From Bacteroidota bacterium (GTDB lineage: Bacteria; Bacteroidota; Bacteroidia; Bacteroidales; UBA4417): a DNA stretch of 64,000 nt. The translations under genes and the position numbers were made by a program. Numbering within the stretch: the stretch's first letter is position 1; each line of letters starts with the position of its first letter. The stretch is taken from positions 62,001 through 126,000 of the forward strand of contig JACAAZ010000004.1 of the NCBI GenBank assembly GCA_013376995.1, read 5' to 3'. Shown here piece by piece: positions 3,876-40,183 of the stretch. The notes below the pieces were generated by a model. It ran no database searches. It had not been told where the DNA came from and saw nothing but the letters and a program-made list of their open reading frames with translations.

Positions 3876-3972
3876 GGGACAGGTGCCAGGTTCCGGGAGC
3901 TGTTGTCCGGGTTCGGATCCAGCTTCCGGGTTCCGTTTACCATGTTCCTGGTGCCATGTGCCAGGTGCAATG
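3876..3972 (+). repeat. Degenerate 7-bp repeat array (unit like tgCCagg/ttCCggg)
   Basis: A CC dinucleotide recurs every 7 bases through this stretch, with one 5-nt phase slip near 3915. Units include TGCCAGG, TTCCGGG, TACCATG, TTCCTGG and TGCCATG. It lies in the spacer between the divergent OstA-like and gatE genes. An open reading frame runs through it into gatE, but this looks accidental. Confidence 0.6.
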
Positions 3973-4039
3973 GGAGGTCTGCCAAACAAGGGTACTAATA
4001 ATTCAGATTTGAGATTTGCAATTTTACTTCAGACTTCCG

Positions 4040-4076
4040 CCCTCCCGCTCTCCCGCTCTCCTGCTTTCCGGCCTCC
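4040..4076 (+). repeat. Short 8-bp repeat array (CCCTCCCG-like)
   Basis: Four successive units, CCCTCCCG, CTCTCCCG, CTCTCCTG and CTTTCCGG, form a pyrimidine-rich run 110 bp upstream of gatE. The same unit recurs at 17999-18024. Confidence 0.5.
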
Positions 4077-4132
4077 TCAAACCCTATCCCGCCAAAGCTT
4101 CCACATACTTGTAAACAATTTCTCAACATATA

Positions 4133-4162
4133 TTTGCCGTTTCTGCATATTCCATACTTTTG
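4133..4162 (+). promoter_or_regulatory. Candidate promoter of gatE-gatD
   Basis: TTTG at 4133-4136 and TACTTTTG at 4155-4162 are 18 bp apart, fitting the Bacteroidota -33/-7 arrangement. The -7 box ends 26 nt before the ATG at 4189 and supports that start over longer upstream starts. Confidence 0.6.
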
Positions 4163-4188
4163 ACCCACTTTTAACAGGATTTCTTTCA

Positions 4189-6162
4189 ATGAAACACTCC
4201 TTCAATCCACGCAAAAACTACGAAAGCACCCGCGAGAAAATCGGCTATGTAACCAGGCAAGAAGCAACGCAGGAAACATATGACAGGATCGGATTTATGT
4301 CGGGTTTGGAAGTGCACCAGCAACTTTTGACAAAGGAAAAGCTGTTTTGCCGCTGCCCTGCGGGCGTATACCAGAAACCTACCCAATTTGATGCTGAAGT
4401 GATCAGGCATATGCGGCCGACTTTGAGTGAATTGGGGGAGTACGATGGTACAGCTCTCATGGAGTTCAAGACCCGCAAGAATATCGTGTACCGGTTAAAA
4501 AATGAAACTACCTGTACCTATGAAGTCGACGACACTCCTCCATTTCCTTTGAACAAGGAGGCCCTTGCCATTGCCATCGAGATCTCATTGGTTTCCAAAT
4601 TGAATATTGTAGGTGAAGTTCATATTACCCGTAAGCAGTACCTGGATGGTTCCATACCCACTGGATTCCAGCGGACAGCCATCATCGGTGTTGAAGGCGA
4701 AATTCCACTGAAAAATAAGAAGGTAAGGCTGATCCAGCTGAGTCTTGAGGAGGATTCATGCAGGGAAGTCAGTGACGTTGGCCATACCCGCATATACCGT
4801 ACAGATCGCCTGGGTATGCCGCTTATTGAGACCGTTACCTATCCTGATATGGTTAACCCTGATGAGGTAAAAGAAGCATGCAATTATATCCGTTTCCTTA
4901 ACAGGAGCACCGGTAAGGTGAGAACCGGAATTGGCGCAGGCAGGGAGGATGTCAATGTGAGCTGTCGTGGGGGATCCAGGGTTGAGATAAAAGGCGTTGC
5001 CCATACCCGTTGGATTCCATCCTTGACACATAATGAATGTTTCCGGCAATGGGCATTGCTGGCAATTCGCGATGAGCTGCTGAGCAGGGTTCCTGTGGCG
5101 GCTTCATGGAAAATGAAGCATGTTTTGTTTGAAAATGATCTTCTGAAAACAAGTTTTGAGCCTATTAAGCAGACTAAGGAAAATAAGAACCAATTGGTTG
5201 CAGTGCTGCTTCCAAAGTTCAAAGGTATCTTATCACATTTTACTCAACCAGGTAAAGTGTTTGCTAATGAACTGAGTGAAAGGCTGAAGGTGATTGCCTG
5301 TATTGAAGTGCCTCATATGACGCACAGTGAGGAGTTTGAACAGATACTTACTGAAAGTAATTGGGAGAAGATTGAACAGCTTCTTATTCCCAACGAAGAT
5401 GACGCTATGATGGTTATCTGGGGACCAGCCGATGATATGCCGACCGCTCTTGAAGTGATTGAAGAAAGATGCCAGATGGCATTTAAAGGCGTTCCGAATG
5501 AAACCAGGAAATCATTTGAAAACGGAACAACCATTTTCGAGAGGGTTCTGCCAGGCGCTGACAGGATGTATCCTGATACCGACTCTGCACCTATTCCTCT
5601 TGAAAACAGTTTTATAGAAAGCCTTGGCAAGAATATACCCAAGGAAGTGATTGAACGCTATCAGCGAATGAGGGATTGGAATATCCCGGAAGATACCTAT
5701 ACATATATTCTTAAGAAGAACCTCTATCCACTGATTGACCGTATCATAACAGAACTTGAGGTTGATCCGGCTTTTGCTGGTAAGTTATTCGGGCATACGC
5801 TTAAGTGGGTGGAGGGCCATTTTAAGCCTGCTGCTGAATTCGACTACAAGATCGTATATGCTCTTCTGCGGTTTCTGAAACAACTAGGCCTTGAGATGGC
5901 TATTGCCAAGAAAATGCTCCCGCTGGTTTATCAATACCCGAAAATGGATTTTGAATCCGTTCTTACCAGCATCAAGTTCAAAAGAACATCAAAGGAACAG
6001 ATACTAAGCCAGGTGCCCTTTCTGAGGAAGAAATTTGCCGAGATAAGGATTTCAAAAGGGAATGATATTGAACATAAGTGGATTTTCGGACAAGTTCGCA
6101 GGAGCGCAGAAGGTAATGTGCCATTGTCAATATTGGCTAAAGAAATTAATGAAATTAAATAA
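4189..6162 (+). CDS. gatE: Glu-tRNA(Gln) amidotransferase subunit E (archaeal-type)
   Basis: GatE binds mischarged Glu-tRNA(Gln), phosphorylates the glutamyl group and, with ammonia from GatD, forms Gln-tRNA(Gln). The N-terminal catalytic part shows the GatB/GatE signature (GFMSGLEVHQQL, LFCRCP, YEVDDTPPFPLN, RKQYLDGSIPTGFQRT, IQLSLEEDSCRE, TRIYRTDRLGMPLIE). A GAD/AspRS-insertion-like domain then separates it from the GatB/YqeY-type helical tail. That domain and the overall length of 657 aa identify GatE rather than bacterial GatB. The start at 4189 is chosen because the reading frame upstream runs through repeats and a promoter. gatD follows after 18 bp in the same direction. GatDE is normally regarded as archaeal. 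Confidence 0.95.
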   Translation: MKHSFNPRKNYESTREKIGYVTRQEATQETYDRIGFMSGLEVHQQLLTKEKLFCRCPAGVYQKPTQFDAEVIRHMRPTLSELGEYDGTALMEFKTRKNIVYRLKNETTCTYEVDDTPPFPLNKEALAIAIEISLVSKLNIVGEVHITRKQYLDGSIPTGFQRTAIIGVEGEIPLKNKKVRLIQLSLEEDSCREVSDVGHTRIYRTDRLGMPLIETVTYPDMVNPDEVKEACNYIRFLNRSTGKVRTGIGAGREDVNVSCRGGSRVEIKGVAHTRWIPSLTHNECFRQWALLAIRDELLSRVPVAASWKMKHVLFENDLLKTSFEPIKQTKENKNQLVAVLLPKFKGILSHFTQPGKVFANELSERLKVIACIEVPHMTHSEEFEQILTESNWEKIEQLLIPNEDDAMMVIWGPADDMPTALEVIEERCQMAFKGVPNETRKSFENGTTIFERVLPGADRMYPDTDSAPIPLENSFIESLGKNIPKEVIERYQRMRDWNIPEDTYTYILKKNLYPLIDRIITELEVDPAFAGKLFGHTLKWVEGHFKPAAEFDYKIVYALLRFLKQLGLEMAIAKKMLPLVYQYPKMDFESVLTSIKFKRTSKEQILSQVPFLRKKFAEIRISKGNDIEHKWIFGQVRRSAEGNVPLSILAKEINEIK

Positions 6163-6180
6163 CACCCGGACTTACAACAT

Positions 6181-7566
6181 ATGACAGAAGATATTTTCCA
6201 GGGATATAAAGGACATGCTCTTGAAGTACTTAAAAACTTCAATGTCAGGGTGTGGAGCCAGTGCACTGTTGAAACTACGCGAGGTACATTTATCGGGACT
6301 ATTCTTCCCCGCTCTGAGAATGATGATGACAAGCATATTGTCATGAAAATTCCTACAGGTTACAATGTGGGCCTCGATGTGGACACAATCAGGTCCATGA
6401 AGGAAACAGGGTATAAAAAGGCAAATTATAAGATCCCTGAAAAGGAATTTCCCTATACACAAGGTTTACCCAAGGTTAAGCTTATTGGTACCGGAGGAAC
6501 AATAGCCTCGCGTCTTGATTACCGCACCGGAGCTGTTATTCCAGCCTTTTCACCTGGTGAATTGTACGGTGCTGTTCCCGAATTGGCGAATATTTGCAAT
6601 CTAACCACGGAAAAGATCTTTGCCGTTTTCAGTGAAAATATGGCTCCTGAAAACTACAAGAAACTTGCTATAGCAATAGGGAAGGAGATTGAAGCAGGTG
6701 TTGATGGGATTGTTATCGGTCACGGGACAGATACCCTTCATCATACCGCGGCTGCTTTAACTTTCATGGTACAGAATTCTCCCGTTCCTATTGTACTTGT
6801 TGGCTCCCAGCGTTCCAGCGACAGGCCAAGTTCTGATGCTGCACTTAACCTGATGCATGCTTGTACTGCTGCAGGTCATGGCGATATTGCCGAAGTGATG
6901 GTATGTATGTTTGGCCCTACTTCTGATGAATATGGATTCCTGCATCGTGGTACCAGGGTTAGAAAGATGCATTCCAGCTATCGCTCAACTTTCAGAACCA
7001 TCGGGGATACACCGTTGGCAACCATTACACGAAAAGGCGTTACTCCGATTAAGCCAGTTTATAATCACAGGCGCAAAGACAGGAATGTTAAGATTCTGCC
7101 TTATTTCGAAGAGAAAGTGGCTATAGTCTATTATTATCCAAATATGCAGCCGGATATTATTGACTCTCTGGTGCAGAATGGGTACAAGGGAATCGTTATC
7201 GCCGGAACCGGATTAGGCCATGTAAACAAACCTATTTATCCGGCAATCGAACGAGCTTCCAAAGCCGGGGTTGCGATCTATATGACTGTTCAAACTCTTT
7301 GGGGCTACGTACATATGTTTGTATATGATACCGGCCGCGACCTTATGGCTAAAGGGATTGTGCCTGCTGAAAACATGCTCCCTGAAGTTGCTTATATCAA
7401 ACTCGGATGGGCACTTGGTCAAACAAGTGACCTTGAAGAAGTTAAGCGCCTTATGTTGACTCCGATCAATGACGAGATCACCAAACGCGAGCCATATAAT
7501 GGTTACCTGGTTTACCAGGGTGGTGTGCGTGAGGTGGAAGAGTTTATCAGGAAGGTGAGGAAGTAG
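6181..7566 (+). CDS. gatD: Glu-tRNA(Gln) amidotransferase subunit D (archaeal-type asparaginase-like glutaminase)
   Basis: GatD hydrolyses glutamine and passes ammonia to GatE. A small N-terminal beta-barrel-like domain (residues 1-90, including VETTRGTFIGTILPRSEND) precedes an L-asparaginase-type domain. The catalytic motifs are visible: IGTGGTIASRLDY (about residue 100), GHGTDTLHHTAA (about 180) and VRKMHSSYRS with the conserved lysine (about 260). The extra N-terminal domain and the 461-aa length separate it from plain asparaginases of about 330-350 aa. Order and spacing with gatE indicate one transcript. I see no broken motif, so the complex should be active. Confidence 0.95.
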   Translation: MTEDIFQGYKGHALEVLKNFNVRVWSQCTVETTRGTFIGTILPRSENDDDKHIVMKIPTGYNVGLDVDTIRSMKETGYKKANYKIPEKEFPYTQGLPKVKLIGTGGTIASRLDYRTGAVIPAFSPGELYGAVPELANICNLTTEKIFAVFSENMAPENYKKLAIAIGKEIEAGVDGIVIGHGTDTLHHTAAALTFMVQNSPVPIVLVGSQRSSDRPSSDAALNLMHACTAAGHGDIAEVMVCMFGPTSDEYGFLHRGTRVRKMHSSYRSTFRTIGDTPLATITRKGVTPIKPVYNHRRKDRNVKILPYFEEKVAIVYYYPNMQPDIIDSLVQNGYKGIVIAGTGLGHVNKPIYPAIERASKAGVAIYMTVQTLWGYVHMFVYDTGRDLMAKGIVPAENMLPEVAYIKLGWALGQTSDLEEVKRLMLTPINDEITKREPYNGYLVYQGGVREVEEFIRKVRK

Positions 7567-7723
7567 CAAGGTAATACGCTACACGCAGTTTCTTAATTGT
7601 TTGGCGCAAAGTATTTGGCATTAAGCATTATGGGTTAGTCTTTGGACGTTCCGCCTAATGCGGATTTAACATTTGACTTTCCCGCCTGAGGCAGATTTGT
7701 TTTCTCCGTCAGTTGACTTATTT

Positions 7724-7898
7724 GTCTTTTGCCTTTTGTCTTTTGCCTTTTGTCTTTTGTCTTTTGCCTTTTGTCTTTTGTCTTTTGTCTTTTACCTTTT
7801 ACCTTTTGTCTTTTGCCTTTTACCTTTTGCCTTTTGTCTTTTGCCTTTTACCTTTTGTCTTTTACCTTTTGTCTTTTGCCTTTTGTCTTTTGTCTTTG
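7724..7898 (+). repeat. 7-bp repeat array, 25 units of (GTC/GCC/ACC)TTTT
   Basis: Twenty-five uninterrupted heptamers occupy exactly 175 bp. TTTT is invariant except in the last unit, and the first three bases are GTC, GCC or ACC in irregular order. The array fills most of the 348-bp gatD-tautomerase spacer and ends 16 bp before the tautomerase ATG. Because 7 nt is not a multiple of 3, all forward frames stay open and give Phe/Leu/Cys-rich phantom peptides. Just upstream (7643-7700) are two small palindromic pieces, CCGCCTAATGCGG and CGCCTGAGGCAG. Confidence 0.9.
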
Positions 7899-38837: not shown

Positions 38838-39254
38838 GCTTCCAGCCGCCAAACTAATATTTCCCACAACCTGCTTCCCGCCACCTGTTCCTTCTTCCTG
38901 CTTCGAACATCCGGCTTCAGATTTCCAGCCAACTGCTTCCGGCTTCCGGCTTCCTGCTTCCGGCTTCCAGCTTTCGACTTCCAGCTTTCGACTTCCTGCT
39001 TCCTGCTTCCTGCTTCCGACTTCCTACTTCCTGCTTCCTGCTTCCGACTTCCGACTTCCTGCTTCCGACTTCCGGCTTCCGGCTTCCTGCTTCCAGCTTC
39101 CGACTTCCGGCTTCCTGCTTCCAGCTTCCAATTTCCGACTTCCAGCTTCCGGCTTCCTGCTTCCTGCTTCCGACTTCCGACTTCCTGCTTCCGACTTCCA
39201 GCTTCCGGCTTCCTGCTTCCTGCTTCCTGCTTCCGACTTCCGGCCACCTGCTTC
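38838..39254. repeat. Long 7-bp repeat array, about 60 units of CTTCC(TG/GG/AG/GA)
   Basis: Over 400 bp consist of heptamers such as CTTCCTG, CTTCCGG, CTTCCAG and CTTCCGA, degenerate at the left end and regular from about 38930. The core CTTCC is nearly constant and the last two bases vary. The array runs to the stop codon of the thioredoxin-like gene at 39255. On the minus strand three units (21 nt) encode a repeated heptapeptide (AGSRKQE), leaving a 165-codon frame open from 39247 to 38750, which I take as a by-product. It fills the spacer between panC and the thioredoxin-like gene. Confidence 0.92.
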
Positions 39255-39767
39255 CTACTTACTCAAGATCCCAAGGATTTCCTTTTCAAGCAAACCCGAA
39301 GGAGATTCAATGATGCGGCCTTTTTCATGTCTCTTGCGATAGAAAACAAATGTCGGGATCTTTTCTATCTTCAACTTCTTGAGTTCTTTAGCCGGAGCAT
39401 TCTTTACATGGTCTACACAAATCAGGGTAAGTTTATTGTAATCAAATCCCGCGAGGTCCATCACTTTATAGAATCGCGGAATCCAATCCTTGCTATCACC
39501 GCACCAGGTGCCCATTACAACAGTGATCTTTATTTTTTTGAATTTTCCTTTCAGCAGGTCGATTGTAGCCTGGTCAGGTTTGTAGGCTGAATACTCAGCC
39601 TGGTAAACAGAATCAAAGTTGCTTTTTATCATCTTGAAACCATCACGGTTGCAATATCCGATCAGCATTTCATTGTTCCTTTTTTCGTCAAACTCTTTTT
39701 GATTTATAGCTTGAGCGAAAATCAAAGCTGGAAATAAAATGAGCAGAACTAGGATTGACTTTTTCAT
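39255..39767 (-). CDS. Secreted thioredoxin-like protein with a single active-site Cys
   Basis: A signal peptide (MKKSILVLLILFPALIFAQ) precedes a thioredoxin fold of about 145 residues. The active-site stretch is VVMGTWCGDSKDWIPRF, in which the usual CxxC has only the first Cys (WCGDS). The cis-Pro region IEKIPTFVFYRKRHEKG is intact. Such proteins occur in Bacteroidota, and a mono-Cys site suggests a role other than a simple disulphide oxidase. There is a second Cys in the N-terminal part (LIGYCNRDG) and one in LICVDH. Its last codon touches the repeat array. Confidence 0.85.
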   Translation of the reverse strand: MKKSILVLLILFPALIFAQAINQKEFDEKRNNEMLIGYCNRDGFKMIKSNFDSVYQAEYSAYKPDQATIDLLKGKFKKIKITVVMGTWCGDSKDWIPRFYKVMDLAGFDYNKLTLICVDHVKNAPAKELKKLKIEKIPTFVFYRKRHEKGRIIESPSGLLEKEILGILSK

Positions 39768-40032: not shown

Positions 40033-40095
40033 AGTAAGAAGTAAGAAGTAAGAAGTAAGAAGTAAGAAGTAAGAAGTAAGCAGCAAGTAGCAAGA
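40033..40095 (+). repeat. 7-bp repeat array, 9 units of AGTAAGA
   Basis: Six exact AGTAAGA units are followed by three variants (AGTAAGC, AGCAAGT, AGCAAGA). The array sits downstream of the response-regulator gene, in the 416-bp spacer 39768-40183, which otherwise shows no gene. Confidence 0.9.
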
Positions 40096-40113
40096 AATAG
40101 TTAGATATCTGGT

Positions 40114-40169
40114 AACCAATAACCAATAACCAATAACCAATAACCAACAACCATTAACCAATAACCAAT
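40114..40169 (+). repeat. 7-bp repeat array, 8 units of AACCAAT
   Basis: Six AACCAAT units and two variants (AACCAAC, AACCATT) end 14 bp before the stop codon of the response-regulator gene. The unit resembles that at 47511-47573. Confidence 0.9.
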
Positions 40170-40183
40170 AACAAAAACTCTCT

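Follow-up and report, generated by a model that had tools for sequence, protein, structure and literature searches.

A widespread bacterial GatDE amidotransferase encoded beside GlnRS in Bacteroidales

Introduction

The amidotransferase GatDE consists of two subunits, GatE and GatD, whose genes lie side by side in a 64,000-nucleotide stretch of DNA (hereafter the window) from contig JACAAZ010000004.1 of a Bacteroidota bacterium of the order Bacteroidales (assembly GCA_013376995.1). We report that this gene pair is no isolated curiosity, and that a widespread, genuine bacterial GatDE is encoded in Bacteroidales beside the glutaminyl-tRNA synthetase (GlnRS). The pair probably specifies a working amidotransferase, and the role that we consider most likely, at a tentative probability of roughly 0.45, is to process Glu-tRNA(Gln) along a back-up or corrective pathway.

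Two reviews, in the passages concerned, place GatDE only in archaea, and according to one paper bacteria that encode both routes to Gln-tRNA are not known. COG2511, the archaeal GatE, is tabulated in the common-ancestor section of a 2013 paper (PMC3685469). No report of GatDE in Bacteroidota was recognised from titles, the starts of abstracts and passages, most subscription journals lying outside this scope.

Identity of the gene pair

Both proteins belong to their families by several measures (Table 1). GatE scores 465.5 bits against the equivalog model NF003107 (cut-off 456) and 406 bits against TIGR00134 (cut-off 319.55), while GatD reaches 504.7 bits with NF003217 (cut-off 310) and 503.4 bits with TIGR02153 (cut-off 324). 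Among the Pfam families, GatB_N (residues 38-477 of GatE) and, in GatD, Asparaginase, Asparaginase_C and GatD_N are matched above cut-off. GatE has the catalytic domain, GAD insertion and tail of its family, and GatD has the GatD_N and type I asparaginase domains. The open frame of gatE spans 3883-6162, and its start was placed at the ATG at 4189, where the alignments of homologues begin. Order and spacing suggest that gatE and gatD form a two-gene operon.

Table 1. Coordinates of the gatE-gatD pair in the window and approximate parts of GatE, with domain boundaries set by the authors
Feature	Position	Strand	Description and basis
gatE	4189-6162	+	GatE subunit, 657 amino acids; NF003107, TIGR00134, GatB_N, structure alignments, Foldseek
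GatE, cradle/catalytic domain	residues ~30-300 and 421-480
GatE, GAD-like insertion	residues ~301-420
GatE, helical and tail part	residues ~481-657
gatE-gatD spacer	6163-6180	+	18 bp from the gatE stop to the gatD start; from sequence
gatD	6181-7566	+	GatD subunit, 461 amino acids; GatD_N and type I asparaginase fold, ammonia-releasing half

For both subunits, the closest solved structures are the archaeal GatDE enzymes of Pyrococcus abyssi (1zq1) and Methanothermobacter thermautotrophicus (2d6f), the best Protein Data Bank matches of GatD being 1zq1_A and 2d6f_A. With a profile built from 32 bacterial GatEs, 2d6f_C and 1zq1_C align over 28-656, that is, over nearly the whole chain with the tail included. 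When GatE was modelled with AlphaFold2 from the 32-sequence alignment (mean predicted local distance difference test score 83, predicted template modelling score 0.75), Foldseek ranked 1zq1_C and 2d6f first, with 1zq1_C on top (E 5e-39). The GatE residues E41, H43, E187, E188, D189, E214, D254 and N256, which we take to make up the Mg/ATP active site, are invariant in all 32 aligned bacterial sequences; the helical and tail part is presumably the one that reads tRNA in archaea. GatD carries the motifs GTGGTIAS, GHGTDT and KMH, aligned to both archaeal structures. An earlier note on this DNA had described two adjacent, full-length subunits with intact motifs, and the equivalog, domain and structure matches confirm that description.

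Distribution in Bacteroidales and in the phylum

The occurrence of GatE was surveyed in a 395-genome draw from the phylum and in a 295-genome draw from the same order as the host. In the phylum draw, GatE exceeded its cut-off in 30 genomes, namely the host, as the only one of its class, and 29 from other classes. The order draw yielded GatE in 124 of the 295 genomes at E <= 1e-50 (122 over cut-off), spread over 62 of the 120 sampled families. Presence follows family lines: among the 99 families represented by at least two genomes, 33 were wholly positive for gatE, 48 wholly negative and 18 mixed, compared with 66.9 mixed families upon shuffling. Pairwise identities of GatE and of the glutamyl-tRNA synthetase GltX were correlated across 12 genomes (r 0.51; as high in 0 of 2000 permutations). 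Because GatE is widespread, coherent within families and correlated with GltX distances, it is neither an isolated nor a recent acquisition. GatDE is also more conserved than GltX: GatE a little (mean pairwise identity 0.661 vs 0.603 across those 12 genomes), GatD far more (0.825 vs 0.616 in seven of them).

A scan of named genomes gave at least 561 relatives among 583 stretches, and the best 80 were mostly titled Bacteroidales, Bacteroidetes or Bacteroidota, with gatE in the isolate-titled records of Marinifilum flexuosum DSM 21950, Labilibaculum sp. K2S and Perlabentimonas gracilis M08_MB. The single-contig genome G605 contains gatE, glnS, asnS and gltX; gatB was found in 14 genomes of the order draw, none of which is G605. 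That G605 and isolate-titled records carry gatE bears out the view that the pair resides in a real Bacteroidales chromosome and is not archaeal contamination.

A GatE of the Bacteroidales type was also seen in one genome of another class (L034, G156) and in records titled Aminicenantes, Archangium, Chlorobiota and Saprospiraceae (L133, L152, L141, L146, L171, L172), which may reflect transfer or mis-binning. Within the other classes, GatB stands beside GatE in at least two genomes (G287 and G314, whose L273 and L274 are members of the GatB clade); three others (G116, G294, G357) have GatE and no second GatB-like match, and are candidates for a Gln route that uses GatDE only.

Coexistence with GlnRS and discriminating-type GltX

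The host genome, 5.05 Mb in size and 96.7% complete, has a gene for a full GlnRS of 570 amino acids on contig C12 (TIGR00440, E 8.1e-228, over cut-off) and one for a single GltX of the bacterial type. An archaeal-type GluRS was not found, since the gltX_arch profile matched only GlnRS and the bacterial GltX, both below cut-off. No gatA or gatB was detected over the family cut-offs (gatC was not searched), and the sole gatA-like frame, of 542 amino acids, is named amidase by NCBIfam. As GlnRS and a bacterial GltX are encoded, GatDE is not the host's only route to Gln-tRNA, and by gene content the supply of Gln-tRNA does not depend on it.

The same holds across the order, where misses of gltX (8/124 genomes with gatE, 12/171 without) served as the yardstick for assembly gaps. 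GlnRS was found in 113 of the 124 gatE-positive genomes, so that glnS was missed in 11/124 compared with 13/171 of the gatE-negative ones (Fisher p 0.83; 24 genomes are glnS-negative, four of them by their absence from the positive list, and the total agrees). The gene asnS was missed in 7/124 vs 12/171 (p 0.81), about the gltX gap rate, and gatB was found in 8/124 vs 6/171 (p 0.27). Since these rates are alike with and without gatE, GatDE is no general stand-in for GlnRS, AsnRS or GatCAB. Neither a glnS nor a gatB match was obtained in eight of the 124 genomes, the same number as that of gatE-positive genomes with gltX missed.

An arginine at Thermus position 358, a mark of discriminating GluRS, occurs in GltX of 40/40 gatE-positive and 40/40 gatE-negative genomes (80 sequences out of the 150 best-scoring places). 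This residue is only an indication of a discriminating GltX, and in Helicobacter pylori GluRS1 mutation of the arginine is described, in the part of PMC3927822 consulted, as having no such effect; the survey in that paper places bacteroidetes, one exception aside, among the phyla without non-discriminating GluRS. As far as can be judged by Arg358 and by a column scan, in which no position told the two sets apart and the largest frequency difference was 0.38 (40 vs 40), an association of GatDE with a non-discriminating GltX was rejected.

Both tRNA-Gln genes of the host have U1 (T1 in DNA) with A72, and the A1:U72 pair is absent from both. A tRNA-Gln(CTG) gene lies just downstream of glnS in the host, in 8/20 gatE-positive and in 2/20 gatE-negative stretches, two of these 40 stretches ending at contig ends, and all of these genes start with U. 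An altered tRNA-Gln accompanying GatDE was thus not seen, the few genes of this small sample, all U1, showing no difference between genomes with and without gatE.

The earlier note had proposed that GatDE provides the indirect route to Gln-tRNA(Gln). This proposal is not supported, given the full GlnRS and the independence of GatE and glnS. In the genome searches it suggested, gatA and gatB equivalogs were not found, glnS was present and GltX, judged by Arg358, was not of the non-discriminating type.

Phylogeny of GatE

Trees were rooted on GatB, a quick one with 76 rows and a careful one with 53 of those 76. In the careful tree, the bacterial GatE sequences fall into a single clade (99/99) that is separate from the archaeal one (100/99) and contains a Bacteroidales sub-clade (100/99) and an other-class sub-clade (97/98). 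L032, a sequence from another class present only in the quick tree, branches alone and with a long branch at the base of bacterial GatE. The archaeal rows are all euryarchaeal, two in the careful tree and three in the quick one, of which one is a very long-branched frame of 481 amino acids. Because these rows are few and all euryarchaeal, an old transfer out of an archaeal lineage not sampled here, a reverse transfer and shared ancestry are all compatible with the trees. Instead of the grouping within archaea that the earlier note had named as support for transfer, GatE forms a separate bacterial clade (two archaeal rows, careful tree). As for its claim of horizontal transfer, a recent archaeal origin is not supported in view of this clade and of the family-coherent presence in 124/295 genomes; an older transfer may have taken place.

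Proposed role and alternative explanations

From what is typical of the family, GatD would free ammonia from glutamine or asparagine, and the ammonia would then pass to GatE, which would use ATP to activate a misacylated aminoacyl-tRNA at its side-chain carboxyl, the group that is then amidated. In a back-up or corrective role, Glu-tRNA(Gln) made by GltX in error or under stress would be converted through GatDE to correct Gln-tRNA(Gln). Since GatDE has long been inherited beside GlnRS and a discriminating-type GltX, we do not regard it as the main supply of Gln-tRNA(Gln). Several observations weigh against the corrective role. A well-discriminating GltX may leave little Glu-tRNA(Gln) to correct, and 171 of the 295 order genomes, with no GatE at E <= 1e-50, presumably manage without GatDE. 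In place of the archaeal A1:U72 pair, which is contacted by archaeal GatDE according to a passage in PMC9499178, U1 was seen in the tRNA-Gln genes, in the host together with A72. Finally, the helical and tail part is the most diverged part of GatE, with 16% identity between Bacteroidales and other-class GatE compared with 22% between archaea and other-class GatE.

It is possible, if doubtful, that GatDE has instead been repurposed, amidating something besides ordinary Glu-tRNA(Gln), or that it is a dedicated quality-control enzyme. In the narrower version of repurposing, which seems unlikely, the ammonia-releasing half would be unchanged while GatE would have switched its RNA partner and would amidate another aminoacyl-tRNA or acceptor. 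Gln-tRNA being already covered by GlnRS speaks for such a switch, as do the low identity of the helical and tail part and the long GatE stem of Bacteroidales (0.97 vs 0.43 for the other-class stem, about twice as long). In the same direction point the identities between the window and other-class sequences, mostly 67-71% for GatD and mostly 42-50% for GatE, and Asp142, which is found in 29/29 archaeal and other-class rows and is replaced by Gly in 22/22 Bacteroidales rows. However, the ratio of the two stems is 1.6-2.5 in all four GatE segments, 1.5 in the pooled catalytic columns and 2.7 in GatD, so that an acceleration confined to the RNA-reading part is not upheld. Such a general acceleration would amount to an altered constraint on the whole enzyme, which is compatible with a changed role and is no proof of one. 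Nor do the neighbours, among which no gene besides gatD is common, or the 31 host tRNA sequences (from 30 of 38 places), none of which looked out of place when read by eye with no test applied, favour a new RNA partner.

The remaining explanations fare worse. If GatDE acted on Asp-tRNA(Asn), a tRNA-dependent asparagine route could replace AsnRS in the host, where no AsnRS was found (asnS without a match at E <= 1e-60; contigs C12, C15 and C40 noted) and where the two PF00152 places are a bacterial AspRS and LysRS. The host tRNA-Asn gene, however, sits at a contig end, which makes an assembly gap plausible; Asn_synthase-family frames are present (five matched stretches); two genomes of the same genus in the order draw (G511, G608) have both gatE and asnS; and asnS is missed near the gltX gap rate. 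We thus regard this route as improbable: as a general rule it is rejected by the order-wide survey, and the host taken alone could represent a gap or a loss. Very improbable is the reading of the earlier note, a recently acquired archaeal pair giving an essential indirect route to Gln-tRNA(Gln). The intact archaeal-type genes, the want of a gatA or gatB equivalog in the host and the eight gatE-positive genomes without glnS and gatB matches would fit it, but those exceptions equal the gltX misses in number, GlnRS is found in the host and in 113/124 gatE-positive genomes, GltX is of the discriminating type by Arg358, and GatE is widespread and forms a bacterial clade. We give equally little credence to a functionless relic or selfish leftover, which the patchiness between families (62/120) and the redundancy by gene content would allow; both subunits exceed GltX in conservation, the motif residues are invariant, and mobile elements offer next to no carriers, as detailed below.

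Gene order, upstream region and mobile elements

Counting the window, 55 of 60 loci have gatD downstream of gatE and on the same strand, with gaps mostly of about -11 to 110 bp; gatD lies within the neighbourhood in 70 of 81 (80 loci and the window, many shortened by contig ends). The next commonest gene occurs in only 14/81 neighbourhoods, and a conserved neighbour that would reveal function was accordingly rejected. Among the exceptions (L070, L071, L066, L075), a peptidase-like frame, called by eye, stands between gatE and gatD in two loci, and two others show no gatD in the 1.5 kb or so around gatE. Two genomes of one other-class genus (L012, L023) have a gatD that is apparently divided between two open frames. 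The 18 bp between the genes and the gatE-gatD order had been singled out as needing explanation; the spacing is as described, and the order is the usual bacterial arrangement.

A Bacteroidota-type promoter had also been proposed. The motif TANNTTTG does occur upstream of gatE, at 4129 and 4155, but its frequency in the window does not exceed the chance level (59 occurrences vs 66.4 expected), and a sigma-70-type scan gave 5 sites vs 7.5 in shuffles. Arrays of 7-bp tandem units are found at 7721-7897, shortly downstream of gatD, and at 38894-39260, 40033-40096 and 40113-40172, one of them also readable as 35 bp.

Among plasmid records, GatE was matched in a single haloarchaeal record and GatD in none, and no viral contig encodes a relative by two peptide patterns (the search did not extend to phage records). 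On these results, plasmids and viruses were rejected as a means of spread.

Relation to known systems and significance

The host enzyme resembles archaeal GatDE (2d6f, 1zq1) in both subunits, in all parts, in its motifs and in its structure match. Unlike the archaeal systems, the host has GlnRS, a bacterial GltX without a second, archaeal-type GluRS, and tRNA-Gln with U1:A72, and its GatE belongs to a separate bacterial clade. The other-class GatE sequences of the same phylum (L006-L033) form the sister clade to Bacteroidales GatE and have the gatE-gatD tandem in most cases; they differ in their mostly 42-50% GatE identity and in the additional GatB of at least G287 and G314. A parallel from another enzyme family is provided by GatCAB, which, according to a part of PMC4206432, is kept beside GlnRS and AsnRS in, for example, Bdellovibrio, Deinococcus and Thermus. 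There, as in the host, an amidotransferase is retained despite direct synthetases, whereas the enzyme of the host is GatDE. The tRNA-dependent supply of Asn proposed for GatCAB in that part is no obvious reason for retention here, because Asn_synthase-family frames are present in the host.

The view of GatDE as an archaea-only enzyme is contradicted by an order of bacteria that is large and has cultured members, and Bacteroidales offer a natural test of the statement that no bacterium encodes both Gln-tRNA routes. The finding bears on whether GatDE dates back to the last common ancestor or passed from one domain to another, and on the coexistence of an amidotransferase with GlnRS. A repurposed or quality-control GatDE, if true, would represent a function undescribed for GatDE in the literature examined.

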